Shown here one piece after another: positions 2,413-48,379 of a stretch of 64,000 bases of DNA. The position numbers and the translations under genes are program-made. Under the pieces are notes generated by a model that was not told the DNA's origin, ran no database searches, and saw only the letters and a list, made by a program, of their open reading frames with translations. The first letter of the stretch is position 1. Every line of letters starts with the position of its first letter. This DNA is from a virus, in IMG/VR virus record IMGVR_UViG_3300022916_000007, positions 1 through 64,000 of that record; one strand, written 5' to 3'.

Positions 2413-2443
2413 GGTTAACAAATGAAGTTGGTTGTGGTATATT
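2413..2443 (+). promoter_or_regulatory. Early-type promoter for the 2468-3525 operon
   Basis: GGTTAACAAA, ten bases, then TGTGGTATATTG. The leader that follows (GTTGTCAGTTGAAAGGGAGG) is nearly identical to those at 3784-3813 and 46538-46567, so promoter, leader and gene start were copied together. Confidence 0.85.
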
Positions 2444-2467
2444 GTTGTCAGTTGAAAGGGAGGAATC

Positions 2468-2890
2468 ATGAGCAACAAGCCAATAATGACAGAACATCCT
2501 AATGGAACAAAATCATGGCACCTAAATGGCTATTTTCATCGAACTGATGGCCCTGCTGTTGAAGATTCTAATGGCCATAAAGAATGGTGGTTAAATGGAA
2601 AGCATCATCGAATTGATGGTCCTGCTGTTGAATATCCTGATGGAACAAAATCATGGTATCTAAATGGGAACCATCATAGAGAAGATGGTCCTGCTGTTGA
2701 ATATTCTGATGGAACATTTGTATGGTATCTAAATGACATACTTTATTATCATATCAAAGGGAAGCTGCACAACAACAATTTCTTAGTATCAGATCAGTAT
2801 ACAGGTCCAGTAATAATAATGGGAGGAAAAAATAAAATAAAGTTCATGAGAACAATAAACAATAAATATTTGGTAATTGAGGAACAATGA
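2468..2890 (+). CDS. WYLNG repeat protein (140 aa)
   Basis: This is the longest copy, with three full repeats and a partial one: SWHLNG, EWWLNG and SWYLNG each followed by H-[RH]-x-x-D-G-P-A-V-E, then VWYLND. The constant C-terminal domain follows from about residue 95 (KGKLHNNNFLVSDQYTGPVIIMGG, given here as its key residues K-L-H-N-N-N-F and T-G-P-V-I-I). AAAGGGAGGAATC precedes the ATG. It leads a plus-strand operon and overlaps the next GDxVW gene by ATGA (2887-2890). Confidence 0.88.
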   Translation: MSNKPIMTEHPNGTKSWHLNGYFHRTDGPAVEDSNGHKEWWLNGKHHRIDGPAVEYPDGTKSWYLNGNHHREDGPAVEYSDGTFVWYLNDILYYHIKGKLHNNNFLVSDQYTGPVIIMGGKNKIKFMRTINNKYLVIEEQ

Positions 2891-3090
2891 ATAACAACAA
2901 ACCAAAATATAAAATAGGTGATGCCATATGGATACATGTTCAATCACCAATAAATCCAATTAGATATAAATATTATGGTATTGCAATAATAACAAATGTT
3001 TTACCATATGGCGCTTATGATATAAAAACAATGGATTCAGATTGTTGGTGCATAGGCAACCACCATATAAAAGGAGAAGTAACTACATGA
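2887..3090 (+). CDS. GDxVW family protein (67 aa)
   Basis: The signature YKIGDAIWIHV at residues 8-18 is followed by YYGIAIITNVLP near residue 30, so both motifs are kept. ATGA overlaps join it to the WYLNG gene before and the GDxVW gene after. It is among the shortest members with both motifs. Confidence 0.85.
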   Translation: MNNNKPKYKIGDAIWIHVQSPINPIRYKYYGIAIITNVLPYGAYDIKTMDSDCWCIGNHHIKGEVTT

Positions 3091-3758: not shown

Positions 3759-3789
3759 GGTTAACAAATCAACCTTGTTGTGGTATATT
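3759..3789 (+). promoter_or_regulatory. Early-type promoter for the 3814-4487 operon
   Basis: GGTTAACAAA, ten bases, then TGTGGTATATTG. From the -10 box to past the next start codon it is almost identical to the 2438-2490 region. Confidence 0.85.
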
Positions 3790-3813
3790 GTTGTCAGTTG
3801 AAAGGGAGGAATC

Positions 3814-4167
3814 ATGAGCAACAAGCCAATAATGAAAGAATATCCTGATGGATCAAAACGATGGTATCTAAATGGAGAGTGTCATCGAACTGATGGGCCT
3901 GCTATTGAACATTCCAACGGAACAAAAATATGGTATCTAAGTGGAGAACGTCATCGTGAAAATGGTCCTGCATATGATTGTTTTGATGGATATAAAGAAT
4001 GGTTTCTCAATGATCAACATTATAGTCACATCAAAGGAAAACTGCACAATAATAACTTCCTGATATCAGATCAATATACAGGGCCAATAATAATAATGGG
4101 GGGGAAAAATAAAATAAGATTCATGAAAACAACAAACAATACATACTTGGTAATTAAGGAACAATGA
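3814..4167 (+). CDS. WYLNG repeat protein (117 aa)
   Basis: Repeats RWYLNGECHRTDGPAIE and IWYLSGERHRENGPAYD are followed by a partial EWFLNDQHYS and then the constant C-terminal domain (KLHNNNFLISD, GPIIIMGG, RFMKTTNN). The leader and first codons match the 2468 copy, so it is a recent duplicate with one repeat fewer. It overlaps the following GDxVW gene by ATGA. Confidence 0.88.
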   Translation: MSNKPIMKEYPDGSKRWYLNGECHRTDGPAIEHSNGTKIWYLSGERHRENGPAYDCFDGYKEWFLNDQHYSHIKGKLHNNNFLISDQYTGPIIIMGGKNKIRFMKTTNNTYLVIKEQ

Positions 4168-4487
4168 ATAACAGCAAACCAAAATATAAAAAAGGTGACA
4201 TAGTTTGGGTTAAAGTATATGAACATGTCATAGCTTACTTTGAACATGAAAATAATCATGAGATCAAAAAAAATAAATTAATCTATATGGGGTTGGCAAT
4301 AATAACAGAAAACCCTAGCTTAAGAACATTTTTTAGCTTAAAAAACTTCTCATGCACTGCATATACCATAAATTCCCTTGCTCTCATAAGTAAATACGAA
4401 GCCTTCTCAGTTTGCAAAAAAAGCATTTTATATAAAATAAATCCCCCAAATAGGTTAACAAATACACCATCTTGTGCTATAATGTAG
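4164..4487 (+). CDS. GDxVW family protein (107 aa)
   Basis: The signature YKKGDIVWVKVYE at residues 7-19 is followed by LIYMGLAIITEN near residue 46. The last 20 codons overlap the next early promoter (4453-4483): R-L-T-N-T is encoded by the -35 region. The C-terminus (SCAIM) therefore may have been extended by read-in to promoter sequence. Confidence 0.8.
   Translation: MNNSKPKYKKGDIVWVKVYEHVIAYFEHENNHEIKKNKLIYMGLAIITENPSLRTFFSLKNFSCTAYTINSLALISKYEAFSVCKKSILYKINPPNRLTNTPSCAIM
4453..4483 (+). promoter_or_regulatory. Early-type promoter for the 4831-5276 genes
   Basis: GGTTAACAAA, ten bases, then TGTGCTATAATG with a perfect -10 TATAAT. It lies inside the last codons of the 4164-4487 gene and is followed by a leader of about 340 bases. 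Confidence 0.82.
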
Positions 4488-4830: not shown

Positions 4831-5004
4831 ATGGTTATATGGATTCATAAGAATATTACAATGCCTACTGCATATCATGTAGATTATCATTATAAATACA
4901 TTGGTTTTGCTTTATTGACAACAAGCCGATTTGATTCTGGTTATTATAATGGTCTTGAGTTAGATTATTTAATATCTGAAGGATGTATTGAGGTTTTGGA
5001 TTGA
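4831..5004 (+). CDS. GDxVW family protein, minimal (57 aa)
   Basis: ATG 4831 is preceded by AAAAAGGA. The protein starts MVIWIHKNIT, so it begins right at the V-W-I core without the Y-K-x-G-D lead. It continues YHYKYIGFALLTTSRF, the second motif, and ends EGCIEVLD. Its TGA overlaps the TTG start of the next gene by four bases. It is shorter than usual ORF cut-offs, but position, ribosome site and motif all support it. Confidence 0.75.
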   Translation: MVIWIHKNITMPTAYHVDYHYKYIGFALLTTSRFDSGYYNGLELDYLISEGCIEVLD

Positions 5005-5871: not shown

Positions 5872-5902
5872 ACAATACCACAAACCATTCACTTTGTTAA
5901 CC
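5872..5902 (-). promoter_or_regulatory. Early-type promoter for the 5853-5269 operon
   Basis: The minus strand reads GGTTAACAAA, ten bases, then TGTGGTATTGTA. The spacing matches the other copies. Confidence 0.8.
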
Positions 5903-6151: not shown

Positions 6152-6380
6152 TTATGGTTCAATTACCAAGTGTTTGTTGTTCATTGTTCTCATGAACTTT
6201 GTTTTATTTTTTCCTCCCGTTATTATTACTGGTCCTGTATATTTGTCTGATATCAGGAAGTTGTTGTTGTGCAACTTTCCTTTGATGTGATCATAAAACT
6301 GATCATTTAGATACCAATATTTTAATCCATCATGATATTCAGCAGCAGGACCATCAGTTCGATGAAACTTTCCATTTGTA
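6152..6380 (-). pseudogene. 3' fragment of a WYLNG gene
   Basis: Reading from about 6380 the frame gives NGKFHRTDGPAAE, YWYLNDQFYD and the whole C-terminal domain (KLHNNNFLISD, GPVIITGG, KFMRTMNNKHLVI) to a TAA at 6152. No start codon or first repeat is present. The 5' part is replaced by the head of a GDxVW gene in another frame (6322-6432). It is a relic of recombination. Confidence 0.75.
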
Positions 6381-6432
6381 ATCCTGATTTAATCCAAATT
6401 GTATCTCCAACCTTATAGCTTTTTCTTTTCAT
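6322..6432 (-). pseudogene. Truncated GDxVW head fused out of frame (36 aa)
   Basis: ATG 6432 starts MKRKSYKVGDTIWIKSGL, a normal family head. At about 6380 the sequence switches to WYLNG-gene sequence in the wrong frame and stops at 6322. The -10 box of its promoter (6440-6470) ends only seven bases before the ATG and there is no ribosome site. Confidence 0.7.
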
Positions 6433-6439
6433 GAAAAAC

Positions 6440-6470
6440 ATTATATCATATTTCTATTAGTTTGTTAACC
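6440..6470 (-). promoter_or_regulatory. Early-type promoter, near-leaderless
   Basis: The minus strand reads GGTTAACAAA, ten bases, then TATGATATAATG; the -10 TATAAT ends at 6440 and the ATG begins at 6432. The -35 lies inside the last codons of the 6446-6775 gene (S-E-V-V-N-K). Confidence 0.82.
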
Positions 6471-21662: not shown

Positions 21663-21990
21663 TAATATTTCCTATTATTGTAACATATTTTGCAGTGTGT
21701 TTATTCTTTCTAATTGAACAAATCTCTTTACGTTCAAATATAGTAACACTAGTGTTTTTTCCAAGCCATTTTTTTGTTTTATTTTTATTAATAGAAAAAA
21801 TATCTACATCCATATGTGAAACATTTAATAATATAGAAAAATTACTTGAATGATTATAGCTAACAATGCCAAAGCCAACATAGTTATGTTTATAAAGTTT
21901 TAATTTTGAAGGCATCCACGACGGAGTATATTCTAAATTATTAACCCAAACTATATCACCCTTTTTAATATCTCTTAAATTTTTAAGCAT
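21655..21990 (-). CDS. GDxVW family protein (111 aa)
   Basis: RDIKKGDIVWVNNLEYTP, then HNYVGFGIVSYNH near residue 34. The C-terminal ICSIRKNKHTAKYV is basic. It is part of a four-gene array 22473-21345. Confidence 0.84.
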   Translation of the reverse strand: MLKNLRDIKKGDIVWVNNLEYTPSWMPSKLKLYKHNYVGFGIVSYNHSSNFSILLNVSHMDVDIFSINKNKTKKWLGKNTSVTIFERKEICSIRKNKHTAKYVTIIGNIND

Positions 21991-22222
21991 TTTTAACCCT
22001 ATATTTAATCCACTCTTCTCTGATTGTAGATCTCACTATTGATCCCAGAAGTTCAAAATGATAATTAACTCTATTAACAATATAATCCGCATCAGAACGA
22101 TAAAGCCCTGACATAATATCAACTTCATCTCCCATAATAACAACTGGCCCGATCAATTTATATTCCCAATTTGAAAACTTTCCATCAACCCAAACAACAT
22201 CACCTATTTTATATTTGCTCAT
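21983..22222 (-). CDS. GDxVW family protein (79 aa)
   Basis: YKIGDVVWVDGKF, then YKLIGPVVIMGDEVD, and the typical C-terminus IREEWIKYRVKNA. It is a good reference for the family: all three signatures are present. AAAGGTAAAATG forms the junction with the gene before. Confidence 0.88.
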   Translation of the reverse strand: MSKYKIGDVVWVDGKFSNWEYKLIGPVVIMGDEVDIMSGLYRSDADYIVNRVNYHFELLGSIVRSTIREEWIKYRVKNA

Positions 22223-22473
22223 TTTACCTTTCTAATGATCCATTCATCCCTAACATTAAAACCATAAAAAGACTCAAATTTCACTGGCAGCTTGCAAGCG
22301 TAATTATATTTTATAGGATTTTCTTTTCCTATCCCAATCTTATAGCTGATTATAGCAAGCCCAACATACCCACCATGATTAGAAACAATATGATAATGTG
22401 GAAGAAAATCTTCCATATTTGGAATCTTAACCCATACAAGATCTCCAGAAGCATAATTATTTTTTACTTGCAT
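22219..22473 (-). CDS. GDxVW family protein (84 aa)
   Basis: ATG 22473 is preferred to the TTG at 22479. ASGDLVWVKIPNM, then GGYVGLAIISYKI, then VRDEWIIRKVK at the C-terminus: all three signatures. The gene ends with an ATGA overlap on the next. Confidence 0.87.
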   Translation of the reverse strand: MQVKNNYASGDLVWVKIPNMEDFLPHYHIVSNHGGYVGLAIISYKIGIGKENPIKYNYACKLPVKFESFYGFNVRDEWIIRKVK

Positions 22474-22663
22474 TTTCAATTATATCTTTTTTGTAATTAG
22501 CTATCATTTTATCATATAGTTCAAGATACTCTTCAGCATCTTTTCCTGGCAAATATTTTTGAACAAAATTAATCTCTTTGAACATTTTAACATTTGTCCC
22601 AACAAAAAACCCAATGCCAATTAAAACAAACCCAACAACTAGCGATAAAACTCCCTCAATCAT
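22457..22663 (-). CDS. Small membrane protein (68 aa)
   Basis: ATG 22663 (MIEGVLSLVVGF) has GAGGGAAAGAAGG before it. One transmembrane helix (SLVVGFVLIGIGFFVG) at residues about 6-22 is followed by a charged helical tail (KDAEEYLELYDKMIANYKKD). It has an N-out or N-in single-pass layout; function unknown. Start and stop overlap the neighbours. Confidence 0.75.
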   Translation of the reverse strand: MIEGVLSLVVGFVLIGIGFFVGTNVKMFKEINFVQKYLPGKDAEEYLELYDKMIANYKKDIIENASKK

Positions 22664-39567: not shown

Positions 39568-40071
39568 TTAAAAGCAATATTTATTATCTTTAATATCAAC
39601 AAAAGTAAGATCACTTAAGTCTAAATATTCATCAAAATAATTATTAATTGGATCTGGAGTGTCGCTAGGTAGTTTTTCCGGTGTGTCATTATATTTAGAA
39701 GTATACCAACAATAATGATCCATTCTAGAATCCACAGCAAAATGATTATGCCAGTAATGATTATTGCATGTGTCAACAAATATCCCATTATTATTTTTCC
39801 AAATATATGTTTTATAATTAATTGACCATGGAAAATATATATTTCCATCATATTTAATATTGTTTTGCAGCCATTTTATTGCCATCAAAATTTTCCCATT
39901 AGAATATTTTCTAATTCCTTCAATAATTGACTCCCTATCCTCATCAAAATAATCATCTTTAACAATTTTTAACATTTGCAATGCACATTCTGCTGTAGTT
40001 TTAATCGACTCCTCTTTAATAACAAATGATGTGCTTGAACTGTTACTAACAAAACCTTGACGAACTTTCAT
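39568..40071 (-). CDS. FVSNSS-motif protein (167 aa)
   Basis: The N-terminus MKVRQGFVSNSSSTSFVI is the motif shared by three adjacent genes. The rest is aromatic and acidic (WYTSKYNDTPEKLPSD, YFDEYLDLSDLTFVDIKDN). The N-terminal pattern occurs in many phage and bacterial hypothetical proteins as I recall; its role is unknown to me. AAAAAGGGTTAAAAC precedes the ATG. Confidence 0.75.
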   Translation of the reverse strand: MKVRQGFVSNSSSTSFVIKEESIKTTAECALQMLKIVKDDYFDEDRESIIEGIRKYSNGKILMAIKWLQNNIKYDGNIYFPWSINYKTYIWKNNNGIFVDTCNNHYWHNHFAVDSRMDHYCWYTSKYNDTPEKLPSDTPDPINNYFDEYLDLSDLTFVDIKDNKYCF

Positions 40072-40074
40072 GTT

Positions 40075-40668
40075 TTAACCCTTTTTATTTTTTCCAATAA
40101 ATTCATTAAGCTCATTAATGTTTTTAAATGATTTTTTAATTGCCTCTTCAATATTAGTTTTGTTTTTCCCTTGAGATGCCAACATAAACTCTAACAAATC
40201 TTCATCTCTGAATGCCTCTAAAGTACAAACAGGACAATAGTCTATAGGAAATTCATACCTATACTCTCCTTCCTCAAAAAAGTTTTCCCACTCTTCTATA
40301 ATTTCTTCATATTCTTTATTTTTCAACTCACTAAGTTCTTTTTCAAGATTGCTAATGTTTGCTTCATAGCCTGATGAATTCCAATTTGAATTAGTGGCCT
40401 TAAGTTTCCTTATGTTATTTTTCGTTGTTGTAATTTGACCATTTAATTTATTTTCAACAAACTGCAATAACTTCTCTTCATTACCAAGAATCTCATGATA
40501 ATCAAACCCGCCCTTAACATGACCTTCACAAAAAATATGACCATTACCACACTCATACATTTCTGCTTCACTTAACATCATGTCATAACCTGAAACATTT
40601 TCTCCACACACGTTACAAATAAAACTACTTGATGAGGAGTTACTAACAAAGCCTGTTCTAATTTTCAT
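40075..40668 (-). CDS. FVSNSS-motif protein with zinc-finger-like cysteines (197 aa)
   Basis: MKIRTGFVSNSSSSSFICNVCGENVSG runs directly into a zinc-binding pattern (CNVCG, then CGNGHIFCEGH) like a RING or ribbon. A coiled coil follows in the middle, then YCPVCTLEAF. The FVSNSS part is thus fused to a zinc domain. GGAGGTAAAAAA precedes the ATG. Confidence 0.78.
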   Translation of the reverse strand: MKIRTGFVSNSSSSSFICNVCGENVSGYDMMLSEAEMYECGNGHIFCEGHVKGGFDYHEILGNEEKLLQFVENKLNGQITTTKNNIRKLKATNSNWNSSGYEANISNLEKELSELKNKEYEEIIEEWENFFEEGEYRYEFPIDYCPVCTLEAFRDEDLLEFMLASQGKNKTNIEEAIKKSFKNINELNEFIGKNKKG

Positions 40669-41027: not shown

Positions 41028-42926
41028 TTATTCAATATCCTCAAATTCTGCGTCAATAATTACCTCACCTCTTTTACTGTTTTCCCCCCTGGCATCGCAA
41101 CTTAGGTCATCATCAGAACAGCCCTGATACATTTCCTTTGAGATGTTGTGGAGAATACTTTCTAACATTTTTTTCTGCTCATTTAAGGCCTCAGACGTGG
41201 TGTCAGAATTCCCCAAAAGCTCCTCAGTGGATTTTATAACATCACCCAATGGGTTGACATAGGCCTTCCCTGAATGCTCTTTAAAAAGGCTCTCAGCAGA
41301 AATTTTTAATGTTTCAAGTTCATTCCTTAAATTGATAATTTCAATTTTTTCCTCATCTTTTACTTTGTTCTCTTCTGCATCATTTTTCATCTTTTCAATT
41401 TCTTCATCAGAAAGCCCACAAGAAGATGTAATTGTAATATCTTTATTTTCTCCAGTCACCTTATCAGTTGCAACAACATTCAAAATGCCATCTGAATTCA
41501 AATTAAATTTAACTTCAATTTGTGGAGTACCTTTTGGGGCAGGTGGAATTCCAATTAAATCAAACTTACCTAAAAGTTTATTATTTGCAGCAATATTTCT
41601 TTCCCCCTGATAGGCAACAATAGATACTGCTGGTTGGTTATTTGCTGCTGTAGAGAAGATCTCCGATTTTACACAAGGGATTGTTGTGTTTCTTTCAATA
41701 ATTCTTGTAAATACTCCACCTAAAGTTTCAATCCCCAAAGACAATGGAGTGACATCCAACAACAAAATATCTTTCACGGCATCGTCACCAGAAAGAACCG
41801 CCCCCTGGATAGCCGCACCCATTGCAACAATTTCATCTGGATTAACACTCTTGTTTGGCTCTTTTCCAAAAAAATCAACCATAATTTTCGTCACTAATGG
41901 AATTCTTGTTGTTCCACCAACAAACAAAACCTCATCTATATCATCAACACTTAGTTTAGCATCTTCCAATGCAATTTTACATGGGACCAAGGCCCTCTCT
42001 AACAATGGCATAATCATTACCTCGAACTTACTCCTACTAAGCTTATAAATAAAATGCTTAGGACCAGTTTCATTTGCTGAAAGGAATGGTAAGTTAACCT
42101 CAGTCTCCAACATTAGGGACAACTCAATCTTCGCCTTCTCCGCTGCCTCTTTTAACCTCTGCATAACCATCTTATCACCAGAGGCATCGATGTTAGTCTG
42201 ATTTTTAAATTCCTCAATAAAATGACCCAACAAAACATTATCTATATCATCACCACCTAAATATGTATCGCCACTTGTTGATAATACCTCAACAATTCCG
42301 CCACCAACTTCAAGTACTGAGAAGTCCGTTGTTCCCCCGCCAATATCAACAACCATAACCTTAAAATCATCTTTTTTATCAACACCATAAGCTAAAGCTG
42401 CCGCTGTCGGCTCATTGATGATCCTTACAACATCCAACCCAGCAATTTCGCCTGCAACCTTTGTTGCCATTCTTTGAGAATCATCAAAATAAGCAGGAAC
42501 GGTAATAACAGCCTTCTCAACCTTTTCCCCAAGATAATCTTCAGCGGCCTTCTTAAGTTTAATTAATATCTTTGAAGAGATCTCTTGTGGTGAATGTTCG
42601 TTATCATCATAAACAATTTTTGTTGAACCATTGCTGTTTTCAAAGACAGAATATGATAAGTTTTTTAACTCACCCTTAATATCTTTATACCTTCTACCAA
42701 TCAACCTTTTTACTGAATAAATTGTAGATTCCGGGTGAACAACTCCAGCCCTTTTTGCTGATATCCCAACTGAACCGTCACTTAAACTAACAACTGATGG
42801 TGTTGTTCTATCGCCCTCTTGATTAATAATAATGCTTGTCTTGCCTGCTTCCATCACCGCAATTGCAGATCGAGAAGTCCCAAGATCAATGCCAACAATT
42901 TTATTTTTAATATTATCACTTCCCAT
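41028..42926 (-). CDS. dnaK: Hsp70 chaperone DnaK (632 aa)
   Basis: ATG 42926 follows GGGGGAAATGGTT; the frame opens five codons earlier. NBD motifs GIDLGTSRSAIAV, NEPTAAALAYG and VVDIGGGTTDFSVLEVGG are present, as is the substrate-binding domain (LLLDVTPLSLGIETLGG). The helical lid is full length, but the C-terminal tail ends VIIDAEFEDIE with the EEVD-like acidic end typical of DnaK. It may aid folding or assembly of virion proteins or hijack the host DnaJ/GrpE cycle. No dnaJ or grpE is seen here. Confidence 0.95.
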   Translation of the reverse strand: MGSDNIKNKIVGIDLGTSRSAIAVMEAGKTSIIINQEGDRTTPSVVSLSDGSVGISAKRAGVVHPESTIYSVKRLIGRRYKDIKGELKNLSYSVFENSNGSTKIVYDDNEHSPQEISSKILIKLKKAAEDYLGEKVEKAVITVPAYFDDSQRMATKVAGEIAGLDVVRIINEPTAAALAYGVDKKDDFKVMVVDIGGGTTDFSVLEVGGGIVEVLSTSGDTYLGGDDIDNVLLGHFIEEFKNQTNIDASGDKMVMQRLKEAAEKAKIELSLMLETEVNLPFLSANETGPKHFIYKLSRSKFEVMIMPLLERALVPCKIALEDAKLSVDDIDEVLFVGGTTRIPLVTKIMVDFFGKEPNKSVNPDEIVAMGAAIQGAVLSGDDAVKDILLLDVTPLSLGIETLGGVFTRIIERNTTIPCVKSEIFSTAANNQPAVSIVAYQGERNIAANNKLLGKFDLIGIPPAPKGTPQIEVKFNLNSDGILNVVATDKVTGENKDITITSSCGLSDEEIEKMKNDAEENKVKDEEKIEIINLRNELETLKISAESLFKEHSGKAYVNPLGDVIKSTEELLGNSDTTSEALNEQKKMLESILHNISKEMYQGCSDDDLSCDARGENSKRGEVIIDAEFEDIE

Positions 42927-43203
42927 AACCATTTCCCCCATTTAAATAATAAAGTTTCTGTATGTTCCTCTTATTTATGAACCAATTTGTATTGTCTATT
43001 TTAGAAAACACAACATTATATATATTTTTAGTTAAAAACTTAAAGCTAAAATAGTTACCATGACATTCTTTATATAACAAAGCTATATTATTATAAAGCA
43101 AGTCTCCCTGTTTATTAATTAGTACAACATATACTGGAAGCCCTTCTCTGCCTTCTTCAGTAATATAAGTGAAAACTAACCCTTTGTCAAGATTATATTT
43201 CAT
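42916..43203 (-). CDS. Hypothetical protein, possibly a diverged GDxVW member (95 aa)
   Basis: MKYNLDKGLVFTYITEEGREGLPVYVVLINKQG has Y-N-L-D-K-G-L-V-F where K-x-G-D-x-V-W is expected, and V-Y-V-V-L-I. The C-terminal half (NTNWFINKRNIQKLYYL) is like the W-I ends of true members. Assignment is weak. It overlaps DnaK's start. Confidence 0.6.
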   Translation of the reverse strand: MKYNLDKGLVFTYITEEGREGLPVYVVLINKQGDLLYNNIALLYKECHGNYFSFKFLTKNIYNVVFSKIDNTNWFINKRNIQKLYYLNGGNGYGK

Positions 43204-43534: not shown

Positions 43535-43917
43535 CTTTCAAACCAATCAACATCAGAACATAAAGTTATTTTGTCACCCTTCCTATTTATAAACCAACCC
43601 GAAACTATTCTTTCTGCACCAACAAACTTGGGGAAAGTATATGTAAAAAAAGCCATTTGTTCTTTAGGGTTAAATTTACTAACAAAAATAACTTTTCGTC
43701 TAACGACTGGCCCAACATAAATTATTTTATTTGCGGCAAAATTATCATATGCATAACGATCAAAGAATACTCTTGAAAACTTTAATGATTGTCCACCACC
43801 AATAAATTGCCAACTTAACGATTTGCAATGATAATGAAATGTTCGTCTAGATATTTCTTTAGATGTGCTGTTTGTAAAGTACAAATCAATCATATCTCTA
43901 CCTTTTCCAAAACCCAA
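43531..43917 (-). CDS. GDxVW-like protein (128 aa)
   Basis: NKIIYVGPVVRRKVIFVSKFNPKEQ carries the second motif at about residue 65; the first is replaced by FIGGGQSLKFSRVFF. The C-terminus has IVSGWFINRKGDKITLC with W-F-I. It seems related to the 43193-43534 protein. Confidence 0.68.
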   Translation of the reverse strand: MGFGKGRDMIDLYFTNSTSKEISRRTFHYHCKSLSWQFIGGGQSLKFSRVFFDRYAYDNFAANKIIYVGPVVRRKVIFVSKFNPKEQMAFFTYTFPKFVGAERIVSGWFINRKGDKITLCSDVDWFER

Positions 43918-44171
43918 CTTTCAGGAATCTGACAACCACCAATTTCTAATCTATCAACAATTAACTTGTTAGCAAAAACAATATCATAATCCCAGGGGTT
44001 CCATGTAGACTGTTCAGAAATAATAGCAAGACCTTTGACAGCCCTTTTAAAGCTTAATAAAAAATGATTATTAATTAAAGCTTGATAATCAGTAAGCTCC
44101 GCAACTTCTTTTAGTGGAATCTGATACCAAATAACATCGCCAGCTTTATACTTTTTATTTTTTTTCATCAA
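43890..44171 (-). CDS. GDxVW family protein (93 aa)
   Basis: KKYKAGDVIWYQIPLKEV, then, after a 23-residue insert, AVKGLAIISEQS, then WDYDIVFANKLIV and the end ESWVLEKVEI. All three signatures are present. It overlaps the next gene by 28 bases. Confidence 0.85.
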   Translation of the reverse strand: MMKKNKKYKAGDVIWYQIPLKEVAELTDYQALINNHFLLSFKRAVKGLAIISEQSTWNPWDYDIVFANKLIVDRLEIGGCQIPESWVLEKVEI

Positions 44172-44571: not shown

Positions 44572-44602
44572 TTTATACCACAACCAACCCTGTTTGTTAA
44601 CC
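44572..44602 (-). promoter_or_regulatory. Early-type promoter for the 44536-down genes
   Basis: The minus strand reads GGTTAACAAA, ten bases, then TGTGGTATAAAG. It lies just after the stop of 44608-44946. Confidence 0.82.
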
Positions 44603-44607
44603 ATAAG

Positions 44608-44946
44608 TCACAAATCAATTCTAAAAAGAGGGTTGTCAAAAAGAGTTGGCAACAACCTTGCAATAATTAAACATAACCATTCAGCATTTCTGAGGTTGTT
44701 CAAAAAGTCTTCTTCAACCATTTTTTCAGTCCAATTATTATTTTTTTCCATAATTTCCCAATTAATATGACTTGAGTTAGCCCACCTGTCAAAATACTTC
44801 GCTGATCCCATTGAAACAGTATCTCCTTTACCTTCCTTATAAAGAATTCGAACAATATGATGTTTGTTACTATAACCAATACCATCATCATATTGCCAGT
44901 CTATCTTATATCCTTTCTTTTTAAAAATGTGCTTAAAATGTTTCAT
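44608..44946 (-). CDS. Hypothetical protein (112 aa)
   Basis: MKHFKHIFKKKGYKIDWQY then HHIVRILYKEGKGD, helical C-terminal half (WTEKMVEEDFLNNL). AAAAGGAATAAATA precedes the ATG. It has no GDxVW motif although it closes a GDxVW array. Not recognised. Confidence 0.72.
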   Translation of the reverse strand: MKHFKHIFKKKGYKIDWQYDDGIGYSNKHHIVRILYKEGKGDTVSMGSAKYFDRWANSSHINWEIMEKNNNWTEKMVEEDFLNNLRNAEWLCLIIARLLPTLFDNPLFRIDL

Positions 44947-45181
44947 TATTTATTCCTTTTGTGCAATCTGCTTTGGCTATTCCATATATATGCTCCCCAA
45001 ACTTAATAATATATTCATAATAATTACCACATTTGCCAGGAAATCTTGGGTGATAAACAATTCCTACTCCTGAAAATGATTGCCACCTATAAAACCCAAG
45101 AACGCCATTAAAGCTAACAATATAACAACTAGCCCAAACAATATCACCTTTTCTATGTCTAAACATTAATTTTTTTGTCAA
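44933..45181 (-). CDS. GDxVW family protein (82 aa)
   Basis: MFRHRKGDIVWASCYIVSF, then SFSGVGIVYHPRFPGK. It ends GIAKADCTKGINNETF, without the W-I tail. It is last of a five-gene array 46174-44933. Confidence 0.83.
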   Translation of the reverse strand: MTKKLMFRHRKGDIVWASCYIVSFNGVLGFYRWQSFSGVGIVYHPRFPGKCGNYYEYIIKFGEHIYGIAKADCTKGINNETF

Positions 45182-45371
45182 TATCTTTCTCCGTTATTGC
45201 TACCCAACGACCAGACAGCAACCCAACCCAAGAAACTAGATATTTTTTAGAACCATTTATGTAACTTTGTTGAATAATAGCAAGACCTGACATCGTTATG
45301 AACTTCCCTGCACACATATGCTGATAGTTGTTAATCCACACAATATCACCAATTTTATATTTATAAGTCAT
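45159..45371 (-). CDS. GDxVW family protein (70 aa)
   Basis: MTYKYKIGDIVWINNYQHM, then KFITMSGLAIIQQSY, then RWVAITEKDIDKKINV. The first 14 codons are nearly identical in DNA to those of 45630 and 45875. It joins the previous gene through the junction GTAAAATGACTTATAAATA. Confidence 0.87.
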   Translation of the reverse strand: MTYKYKIGDIVWINNYQHMCAGKFITMSGLAIIQQSYINGSKKYLVSWVGLLSGRWVAITEKDIDKKINV

Positions 45372-45643
45372 TTTACTTTCCCTTTAACCCACTCTTTGAC
45401 AATAGCCCACTCTTTAAGTTTTTTAGTGCCATATTCAAGACTAAAACCAATAGGCAATGAAATGACATAATCCCAAGAACCAAATTTATTGTTATGAGAA
45501 TATACCTCAAAAATAACAGCAACAAAGGTACAACCACCCTTTTTTACAACTGCATGTCCTTTACAATTTTCATTTTTAACATTTCTTAAGTTTGGAATTT
45601 TAACCCAAACAATATCACCAACTTTATATTTATAAATTTTCAT
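45368..45643 (-). CDS. GDxVW family protein (91 aa)
   Basis: MKIYKYKVGDIVWVKIPNL, NCKGHAVVKKGGC, then AIVKEWVKGKVK. The C-terminal EYGTKKLKEWAIVKEW is close to the 46174-45875 end. All three signatures are present. Confidence 0.87.
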   Translation of the reverse strand: MKIYKYKVGDIVWVKIPNLRNVKNENCKGHAVVKKGGCTFVAVIFEVYSHNNKFGSWDYVISLPIGFSLEYGTKKLKEWAIVKEWVKGKVK

Positions 45644-45878
45644 TTATTAAACCTTTTATTTGGCTTTCTCCAATAATACTAAGACCTTCATATACCCCAA
45701 CAGGCAATCTGACTACATATACAATCCCCCTTATATCATGATCATATTTTCCTGACAATCCACAACTAACAATGCTTACTGGTCCAGTATAAAAAGAATA
45801 GCTGCCTTTTCTTGGCCAATAAAAAGCCTCTTTAACCCATACAATATCACCAATTTCATATTTGTATTTATAAGTCAT
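45630..45878 (-). CDS. GDxVW family protein (82 aa)
   Basis: MTYKYKYEIGDIVWVKEAFYWP (two extra residues in the head), SFYTGPVSIVSCG, VVRLPVGVYEGLSI. It ends QIKGLINENL rather than W-I. A ribosome site is scarcely visible beyond the AATAAAA of the junction. Confidence 0.86.
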   Translation of the reverse strand: MTYKYKYEIGDIVWVKEAFYWPRKGSYSFYTGPVSIVSCGLSGKYDHDIRGIVYVVRLPVGVYEGLSIIGESQIKGLINENL

Positions 45879-46174
45879 TTTATTTTTCTATCAATCCATT
45901 CTTCGGCAATAGACCATTTATATTTTTCATCAACAGCAGACAAGTTGTTAAGCTCAAGCGGGAATAGCAATGAAAGCTCAACATTATAATGCCAACCTGA
46001 GATATTATTATTATTATTTAAACCGTTTTGATTTAATACTTTGCTGACTCTTCCTAGACAACTGCAACCACCACAGGCAGCAATAAAATGTTTATTATGT
46101 TTTCTATTTTTAATGTCCTTTGCTGGTGGAATTTTAACCCATACAATATCACCAACTTTATATTTATGTGACAT
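45875..46174 (-). CDS. GDxVW family protein (99 aa)
   Basis: MSHKYKVGDIVWVKIPPAKD, then a cysteine-containing insert (FIAACGGCSCLGRV), NVELSLLFPLELNN and the end IAEEWIDRKIK. GAGGAGTTATAAATA precedes the ATG. The usual GPAII is replaced by CLGRVSKVL. Confidence 0.85.
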   Translation of the reverse strand: MSHKYKVGDIVWVKIPPAKDIKNRKHNKHFIAACGGCSCLGRVSKVLNQNGLNNNNNISGWHYNVELSLLFPLELNNLSAVDEKYKWSIAEEWIDRKIK

Positions 46175-46177
46175 TAT

Positions 46178-46537
46178 TTATAACTCCTCAAATTTAATTA
46201 CCAGATATATATTATTTATTGTTCTCATGAACCTTATTTTATTTTTCCCTCCCATTATTATTACTAGGCCTGTATATTCATTTGATACCAGGAAATTATT
46301 ATTGTGCAACTTCCCTTTGGTGTCATAATAAAATTGCCCATTGAGATAACATTCTTTATATCCATCAGGATGTTCATAAGCAGGGCCATCTTCTCGATGA
46401 CACTCCCCATTTAGATACCATCCTTTTGTTCCACTATGATGCTCAGCAGCAGGACCATCTTCTCGATGCAACTTTCCATTTAGATACCAATGTTTTGTTC
46501 CACTAGGATATTCTGTCATCATTGATTTGTTGAACAT
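46178..46537 (-). CDS. WYLNG repeat protein (119 aa)
   Basis: Repeats HWYLNGKLHREDGPAAE, GWYLNGECHREDGPAYE and ECYLNGQFYYD are followed by the constant C-terminal domain (KLHNNNFLVSN, GLVIIMGG, RFMRTINN). Its leader matches those of the copies at 2468 and 3814, 40 kb away. It heads the five-gene GDxVW array 46174-44933. Confidence 0.88.
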   Translation of the reverse strand: MFNKSMMTEYPSGTKHWYLNGKLHREDGPAAEHHSGTKGWYLNGECHREDGPAYEHPDGYKECYLNGQFYYDTKGKLHNNNFLVSNEYTGLVIIMGGKNKIRFMRTINNIYLVIKFEEL

Positions 46538-46561: not shown

Positions 46562-46592
46562 AATATACCACAACAAGGTTCATTTGTTAACC
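46562..46592 (-). promoter_or_regulatory. Early-type promoter for the 46537-44608 operon
   Basis: The minus strand reads GGTTAACAAA, ten bases, then TGTGGTATATTG, followed by the same TTGTCAGTTGAAA leader as at 2443 and 3789. Confidence 0.85.
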
Positions 46593-46717: not shown

Positions 46718-48379
46718 TTAATTTTCTAAGATTTGATCTGCCAAAGCAGACACTTCAAGGTAGGAATCTGGGTTTATTTCAAACTCTTCAGGGTTGCCAA
46801 GTTTTCTAACACAAGATTGATCAATTAATTCTTCGATCATTTCAGGATATACATTGATTATCTTTTCTTTAAATTCTTTCTTCCTGAAGCTTTCATTTAA
46901 AAGAATGTTGCCTTTCTGATCTTTTGCAACCACTTTACTCCAAGCGCTAGCAGAAAAATTAACAATACATTCTTTATCATTAATAGTATAAGTTAAGTTT
47001 TCAGCCTTAGCCAAAGTATCAAATATTTGTTCACTCTCTTCAATTCCAACGTTAAACATAATATTAAAGCCAGCAGTCTTAAATGGGATAGATACTTTAT
47101 TTTTAATAACCTTGGCCTTAACACCAACCCCAATTTGATCATCTTTGCCTTTATCACCAAGCACTTTGCCATCTCTTAACAATTTAATCCGTGTGCTAGA
47201 GTGATAGGGTATCGCTTTGCCCCCAAACGATACCATACTATCACCATAAACCACACCAATCTTTGACTTTAATTGATTAGTAAATACCATTGTAACCTTT
47301 TCTGAACCGATCATCTGTGTAATTTTTCTAAGACTTTGAGCAATCACTTTTGCAGCAGCAGCCATAAACTTATCATCATGTTCACCATCCAACTCTGCTT
47401 TTGTAGGAGTTCCAGCAACGGAGTCCCAAACAATTGTCACAGGCTTATTTTTACCTATTGTTCTTATCTTTTTAATAACTTGCTCAATTGTGCTAAACAC
47501 ATCTTCAATATGATTAGGTTGTGCATACACAAAACCCTTTAAATTAATACCAAGTCTTTTAAGTAGCTCAGGACTGGTTGCATTTTCAGTATCCAACAAA
47601 ACTCCAATACCACCTTTCTTTTGGGTTGATTTTAATAACTCTATGGCTAATAAACTTTTTCCTGTGTTGTGATTTTTTATTCCATTTGCCCAATAACAAT
47701 GCTCTTCATGATCAACTTCAATGTCATAAATCTCATGTTTTCCAATTGATTCAATTGATATAATTTTTTGAGGACCAGTAACTGTAGATATTTTATCACT
47801 GATGTCTAAATCTTTTGCACAAACCCAACCAACTTCATTCTCATTTTCACAAAACAACAAGTGATCACCAGTACATTCAATAAACCTTTTATCCTTAACA
47901 ACAACCTTAATAGCATGTAGTTTCCCTTTCTCAACAAACCTTTTTACAGGAATAAAACCATAAGGAGAGTCAACACAAACACTTCTACCACTCTCTAACA
48001 TTTCTTTAATATCAACAATCTTAACTATTTTTTTTACATCTCCATCAGTAGAGACTCTAATAGCGGAACGTCCAGTGATACAACTTTCCTCACCGACAAT
48101 CTCAGTTAATCTTCCAACAGGCACACCTCCACCTTTTTTATTTGCAATTGCATAATCAAGCAACGTACTTCCTGTTGAAATAAACTCTTTAATATCAGTT
48201 GGGCTTTCTTCGAACCCAAGGGAATAAGCTATTTTTGTTTTTGAGCTTTTATTAATTTCTTCAATTAATTCTTTTGAGATTTCACTAATAATTTTGTCAT
48301 TCTCTTTTGATTTTTCAATAAACTTCTTTTTTTGCTCTTCTTCTTTTTTTTCTTTATTAGTTTCTTTTTTTGTTACCAT
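46718..48379 (-). CDS. recA: RecA/UvsX recombinase with an intein (553 aa; 414 after splicing)
   Basis: The host protein has ISTGSTLLDYAIAN and PVGRLTEIVGEES, and after the intein TGKSLLAIELL restores the Walker A site GEESTGKS. GVLLDTENATSPELLKRLG is the next conserved block, and VMVFTNQLKSKIGVV with GGKAIPYHSSTRIKL the L2 region. It promotes strand exchange for replication and recombination. The N-terminal 30 residues are a lysine/glutamate tract. The C-terminal 100 residues are more divergent. The intein occupies residues 100-238. Confidence 0.93.
   Translation of the reverse strand: MVTKKETNKEKKEEEQKKKFIEKSKENDKIISEISKELIEEINKSSKTKIAYSLGFEESPTDIKEFISTGSTLLDYAIANKKGGGVPVGRLTEIVGEESCITGRSAIRVSTDGDVKKIVKIVDIKEMLESGRSVCVDSPYGFIPVKRFVEKGKLHAIKVVVKDKRFIECTGDHLLFCENENEVGWVCAKDLDISDKISTVTGPQKIISIESIGKHEIYDIEVDHEEHCYWANGIKNHNTGKSLLAIELLKSTQKKGGIGVLLDTENATSPELLKRLGINLKGFVYAQPNHIEDVFSTIEQVIKKIRTIGKNKPVTIVWDSVAGTPTKAELDGEHDDKFMAAAAKVIAQSLRKITQMIGSEKVTMVFTNQLKSKIGVVYGDSMVSFGGKAIPYHSSTRIKLLRDGKVLGDKGKDDQIGVGVKAKVIKNKVSIPFKTAGFNIMFNVGIEESEQIFDTLAKAENLTYTINDKECIVNFSASAWSKVVAKDQKGNILLNESFRKKEFKEKIINVYPEMIEELIDQSCVRKLGNPEEFEINPDSYLEVSALADQILEN
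47666..48082 (-). other. Mini-intein in recA (139 aa)
   Basis: It starts C100 (CITGRSAIRVSTDG), has block B FIECTGDHLLF, and ends YWANGIKNHN at 238 followed by T239. It splits the P-loop between S99 and T239. No endonuclease domain is seen. Threonine as the +1 residue is one of the allowed nucleophiles. Confidence 0.92.

Follow-up and report, generated by a model that had tools for sequence, protein, structure and literature searches.

How can a row of small phage genes carry near-identical starts and stop/start junctions around dissimilar middles? The question is raised by an array at 45–46 kb of the window, the whole stretch of 64,000 nt analyzed here (positions 1–64,000 of IMGVR_UViG_3300022916_000007, a virus record of 92.7 kb with a GC content of 32%). 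The source virus is a large tailed phage, and among the other genes of the window are those for a RecA/UvsX with an intein-like insert, a gp41-type helicase, a 5'-3' exonuclease and ThyX, together with an SSB named by its location and by a match to an Immutovirus gene. Two more IMG/VR records belong to the same population, 3300024243_000011 (G001, 76 kb) and 3300024258_000128 (G002, about 22 kb); all three records are fragments, and the population comparisons rest on few relatives. We consider it reasonably probable that the array is an accessory set in which recombination at short homologies adds, removes and reshuffles genes, as it does in phage T4.

All array genes lie on the minus strand, at the ORF positions given in a preliminary description of this DNA. 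They form a putative operon, in which a promoter-like motif at 46591 is followed by a WYLNG-repeat gene and then by cassettes joined through stop/start overlaps, in the order A-B-A'-B'-C. The features of this array and of its nearest counterparts are as follows.

46565–46591, minus strand: promoter-like element at the array start (six exact copies in the window, none in shuffled sequences)
46178–46537, minus strand: WYLNG-repeat leader gene, 119 aa, one of at least seven copies (73–81% DNA similarity among copies)
45875–46174, minus strand: cassette A, 99 aa, head KYKVGDIVWVKIP, tail EEWIDRKIK and stop overlapping the next ATG
45630–45878, minus strand: cassette B, 82 aa, head MTYKYKYEIGDIVWVK
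45368–45643, minus strand: cassette A', 91 aa, paralogous to 45875–46174 over its whole length (body z 14–16)
45159–45371, minus strand: cassette B', 70 aa, head MTYKYKIGDIVW, SH3-like barrel in the AF2 model
44933–45181, minus strand: cassette C, 82 aa, GDIVW without the constant head
44608–44946, minus strand: next array gene, 112 aa, unknown family
44575–44601, minus strand: second promoter-like copy by motif match, putative start of the next transcription unit
43890–44171, minus strand: A-type cassette, 93 aa (body z 7.6 with 22219–22479)
22219–22479, minus strand: A-type member of the third A-B dyad, with the tail DEWIIRKVK and a stop overlapping the next ATG
21983–22222, minus strand: dyad partner of 22219–22479, head MSKYKIGDVVW

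Neither an Rfam RNA nor a terminator was found within the array, which RecA/UvsX-type and ssDNA-binding genes adjoin. The intein-like insert of the RecA/UvsX-type recombinase (46718–48379, minus strand; Pfam Intein_splicing, E 4e-6) starts within the first part of the RecA domain. A phage-encoded DnaK-like protein, identified by sequence, lies immediately downstream of the cassette region (41028–42941, minus strand).

The cassette family is far larger than the array, with about 30 members recovered by iterated profile searches across the two main records. A typical member has KxGDxVW at its start, YxGxAII in mid-protein and an I...I tail. Searches of Pfam and PHROG gave no family match of significant E for the cassettes, and PADLOC gave no family; among the Pfam and PHROG results there was no curated SH3, KOW or Tudor sequence match. 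AF2 models of 45159–45371 and 45368–45643 had pLDDT values of 91.9 and 83.7, respectively. The former is a small five-stranded barrel of SH3-like fold (strands 10–20, 23–38, 42–48, 57–60 and 64–68), the last of its strands being preceded by a short helical turn. Its Foldseek matches to chromo-barrel, Tudor and SH3 folds had probabilities of about 1 and E of at least 0.037; the best solved folds were the chromo-barrel/Tudor group (Tip60, MSL3, MRG15) and ribosomal protein L19, a likeness of fold only that carries no evidence of shared function. Viral Foldseek matches were uncharacterised small phage proteins. YorP of Bacillus subtilis (PDB 2heq) and uncharacterised SH3-like proteins of Enterococcus phage 9184 and Aeromonas phage Aeh1 resemble the cassettes as small single-domain SH3-like barrels (Foldseek probability 0.99–1.0), but no sequence relation to the cassettes was found for them (E 0.01–0.4) and they are not known in arrays. 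Judged by these models, the roughly 30 cassette proteins are predicted to be SH3-barrel-like, and they make up an orphan family.

Relatives were sought in IMG/VR with UvsX, SSB, RNR, the WYLNG gene, the GDIVW motif and the promoter motif as queries, which yielded the two records of the same population and distant phages without the cassette family. As a control, the cassette-family model does match in all three home records; Immutovirus gave a single weak match (E 0.007). No relatives were found in the bacterial and archaeal genomes, plasmids and GenBank phages searched, and the family was not found outside the home population in these collections. In the Immutovirus and Mel-JY01 relatives, RecA is directly followed by replication genes, with no array between them.

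Genes 46174, 45878, 45643 and 45371, named by their start positions, share a 36-nt head core around KYKxGDIVW with 88–94% pairwise identity and exact words of 13–25 nt. The preliminary description had given all four near-identical MTYKYK heads and one junction. The core is indeed present in every one of them, but the MTYKYK start is confined to 45371 and 45878, whereas 45643 starts MKIYKYKV and 46174 MSHKYKV, both with other junctions. The quoted junction likewise occurs, as (G/A)TAAAATGACTTATAAA, at 45878 and 45371 (one base changed) but not at 45643 or 46174, and its stop, read as TAA, is a TGA overlapping the ATG (ATGA): the tails EEWIDRKIK and KEWVKGKVK of the genes before 45878 and 45371, respectively, overlap the next ATG by 4 nt. 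Gene 45181 (44933–45181) has only GDIVW of the constant head. In the window, another head, K(V/I)R(Q/T)GFVSNSSS(T/S)SF(V/I), is near-identical in two adjoining genes at 39568–40668 (minus strand), and the rest of these genes differs.

A codon-by-codon check had been proposed for these genes. Wherever two of the four heads agreed in amino acid (47 pairwise comparisons of sites), the codon was also identical in 40 cases, against about 26–28 expected in simulations, namely 25.7 by phage genome codon usage (P 0.0005), 27.6 by the family's own usage (P 0.0017) and 26.4 by the first-15-codon usage of phage genes (P 0.0005). Hence, the DNA of the heads is more similar than the protein motif needs. 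Family-wide, the head ratio in this test was 1.28 (z 5), and leaving out the four genes still gave 1.23 (z 3.3); the second motif, YxGxAII, equally conserved in protein, had a ratio of 1.10 (z 1.2). Two heads of one array were more similar in DNA than two from different arrays (0.68 vs 0.62, P 0.0013), with no difference in the synonymous ratio alone (P 0.15); these head statistics come from a small sample of short sequences and from several tests.

Nucleotide-level selection on the start region, through an SD-like purine tract, low structure and preferred early codons, would also keep heads and junctions alike. The upstream tails do carry SD-like tracts right before the ATG, and the conserved part lies within about 45 nt of the start. 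We nevertheless consider this explanation very unlikely, as first-15-codon usage fails to account for the head identity and GC3 in this region is barely lower than elsewhere (0.24 vs 0.25).

Plain tandem duplication with divergence is a different proposal, in which heads and tails are under purifying selection, bodies drift and heads do not recombine; the kept parts would then correspond to the first strand and the last helix/strand of the fold and to translational coupling. The bodies of the four genes had been described as different, and they are in general shorter, longer or unalike, but 46174 and 45643 are homologous over their whole length (z 14–16). Their heads match at 40 of 41 nt and the last ~53 nt plus the stop at about 75–79%, the DNA between aligns poorly, and an excess of shared codons is found in the head (9/10) and, mildly, in the body (16/22). 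Taken alone, this pair fits plain duplication. The family tree gave fair support to 45643 with 46174 only (93/86). Since the A members (46174, 45643, 22479 and 44171) form one subtype, A-B dyads can be recognized at 46174/45878, 45643/45371 and 22479/22222; the dyads are defined by their A members, kinship of the B members not being established by body comparison. The dyad at 22 kb repeats the same tail-start overlap, and the head motif is conserved in protein across the family, as plain duplication would also have it. Against it, A and B heads share codons despite their unlike bodies, YxGxAII is as conserved in protein without a codon excess, and copies of a promoter-led module, 73–86% identical, break off abruptly in the head. 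We regard tandem duplication without head recombination as possible but rather unlikely. Repeated duplication as such, proposed from the outset, is supported by gene 46174 as a duplicate of 45643, by the A-B dyads and by the five copies of the module. The DNA of the 3' end of 45878 also matches the middle of 45371 over 47 nt (GLSII vs GLAII region), perhaps by internal shuffling or by chance.

The module consists of a promoter-like motif and a WYLNG gene. The motif, GTTAACAAA-N9-TTGTGGTAT, is readable as TTAACA, 17 nt and an extended -10, TGGTATATT. Across the two main records, 14 distinct sites carry it in slightly degenerate form. Most of them immediately precede a WYLNG-repeat gene or a cassette, and in G001 some stand ahead of other genes. 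Matches in three other contigs were discarded as chance matches inside an unrelated gene. The WYLNG gene had a weak DUF6745 match, below cut-off, and a MORN_2 identity was rejected, with no PF07661 match at E 0.1 in the three records. In nearly all comparisons the upstream edge of the module is the first base of the promoter. The downstream edge lies 26–50 nt into the following cassette in the copies at 2414, 3760 and 46591, and at about the WYLNG stop in those at 5901 and 67791. Two of the copies are arranged as follows.

2414–3090, plus strand: module copy with promoter 2414–2440, WYLNG gene 2468–2890 and cassette 2887–3090
3760–4487, plus strand: module copy with promoter 3760–3786, WYLNG gene 3814–4167 and cassette 4164–4487, of different body

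Homology between the 2414 and 3760 copies stops 34 nt past the cassette ATG; identity near this junction is 26–28 of 30 per comparison window, then noise. Cassette bodies after the module edges had z < 2, and the bodies of 2887 and 4164 barely relate (P 0.05 in protein, P 0.03 in DNA). This weak similarity leaves room for very fast divergence in place of replacement. The synonymous divergence of WYLNG genes is only about 0.2–0.85, and at such values unconstrained cassette bodies should still align. A search for breakpoints at the heads had been suggested, and in module copies DNA homology does end a short way into the next head.

Population evidence comes from G001, which is identical to the window over 18,476 + 4,950 bases (23.4 kb) except for one 687-bp gap. 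The 687 bp are missing from the window, between two copies of ATTATAATAACCA (13 bp; window 4938–4950). G001 has three full cassettes there (L014, 3340–3597, 3655–3912 and 3949–4212), and the window has a single 57-aa chimera of the first and the last of them.

4831–5004, plus strand: in-frame cassette chimera with junction repeat ATTATAATAACCA at 4938–4950; the three genes are intact in IMGVR_UViG_3300024243_000011

Because G001 has the full-length form, the difference suggests a deletion in the window. Direct repeats thus flank a change in cassette copy number, in a single event at a site other than the 45–46 kb array. The recombination put forward in the preliminary description gains support from this deletion, with its chimera, and from the module homology that ends inside the following head. 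The comparison of the same locus among relatives had a mixed outcome: the sole relative overlapping 45–46 kb, G002, matches the window at 100% identity along all of its ~22.5 kb, and hence no variation was seen at that array, but a cassette deletion was found at a sister array.

The polymorphism at 4.9 kb and its chimera might instead be artefacts, since both sequences were assembled from metagenomes; nothing would then show directly that the arrays change. Usual assembly k-mers, however, are far longer than 13 bp, so that the repeat lies far below them; the junction is in frame, and the remaining 23.4 kb is 100% identical. An artefact is, in our view, highly improbable.

A further fusion is found nearby, in the same form in G001.

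6152–6441, minus strand: dead chimera in which a GDxVW head runs out of frame into the 3' part of a WYLNG gene

The chimera at 6322–6432 had been cited as independent evidence that heads recombine. It is real, but it is out of frame and a dead gene; what it shows is illegitimate joining, not a productive swap of heads. Direct-repeat pairs of 13 nt spaced 300–1500 nt apart number 515, compared with 7–22 in Markov sequences. The 0–5 kb bin holds the start of 86 of these pairs and the 45–50 kb bin that of 43, and repeats of the length seen at the deletion thus join the heads of the 45–46 kb array. Most of the remaining pairs lie at 70–80 kb, in another repeated family. At 72292–92637 of the record (minus strand), among structural genes, at least seven proteins share the start MNLLEKYIRLLL(I/V)E(S/G)R and a DPSGNNKYLxWM motif.

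Shared promoters, WYLNG leader, stop/start junctions and the first 35–45 nt of the cassettes together make up a lattice of short direct repeats. Recombination at such short homologies would duplicate, delete and re-join cassettes, so that heads and junctions stay constant around bodies that differ. Re-joining of this kind is documented by the one deletion and by the module edges, and by extension would have shaped the 45–46 kb array. The phage's own recombinase probably drives it, with catalysis by the RecA/UvsX-type and ssDNA-binding proteins. In T4, genes are amplified and deleted via microhomology recombination, and at dmd-tifA segmental amplification is accompanied by compensatory deletions of 0.7–6 kb (PMC9391042). 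Here as there, recombination at short direct repeats alters the dosage or content of accessory genes. Unlike dmd-tifA, the present case involves a standing set of ~30 paralogues, diverged but equipped with conserved heads and leader modules, and its one 0.69-kb deletion is known from sequence comparison. It offers a natural, sequence-visible case of phages building and pruning arrays of small accessory proteins, in which constant heads and leader modules provide the short homologies and the bodies differ.

A dedicated diversification layout, with promoter, leader and head modules as standard recombination sites for different barrel bodies, we hold to be unlikely; if true, it would give a fast-changing repertoire of host-directed effectors on one fold. 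A diversity-generating retroelement was rejected because the three (fragment) records contain no reverse transcriptase match (PF00078). Polymorphic toxin systems combine a constant N-terminus with a recombining C-terminus (PMC3482391), and the cassettes resemble them in their constant start and varied remainder. The constant part is a delivery domain in those systems, however, and one strand of the fold in the cassettes, which are single small domains with no trafficking or toxin domain found. This identity was rejected as well, the cassettes being single-barrel proteins of ~67–107 aa with no toxin family in Pfam, PHROG or PADLOC.

The invariant head would form the first barrel strand and the body may confer specificity. 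The bodies, too divergent for dN/dS, may have been diversified under selection. The cassette proteins are small, their genes are packed behind promoters and lie between core genes, and relatives lack them; on these grounds they are probably accessory, early-expressed, host-directed factors of, for example, takeover or counter-defence. If such roles were proven, the family would be a ready panel of ~30 variants on one small fold.

Elsewhere in this population, G001 carries at 59–76 kb (L039) a large sugar cluster with a NeuB-family synthase, a cytidylyltransferase, a UDP-GlcNAc 2-epimerase and glycosyltransferase-like genes, which suggests synthesis of a nonulosonic-acid (sialic-like) surface sugar.
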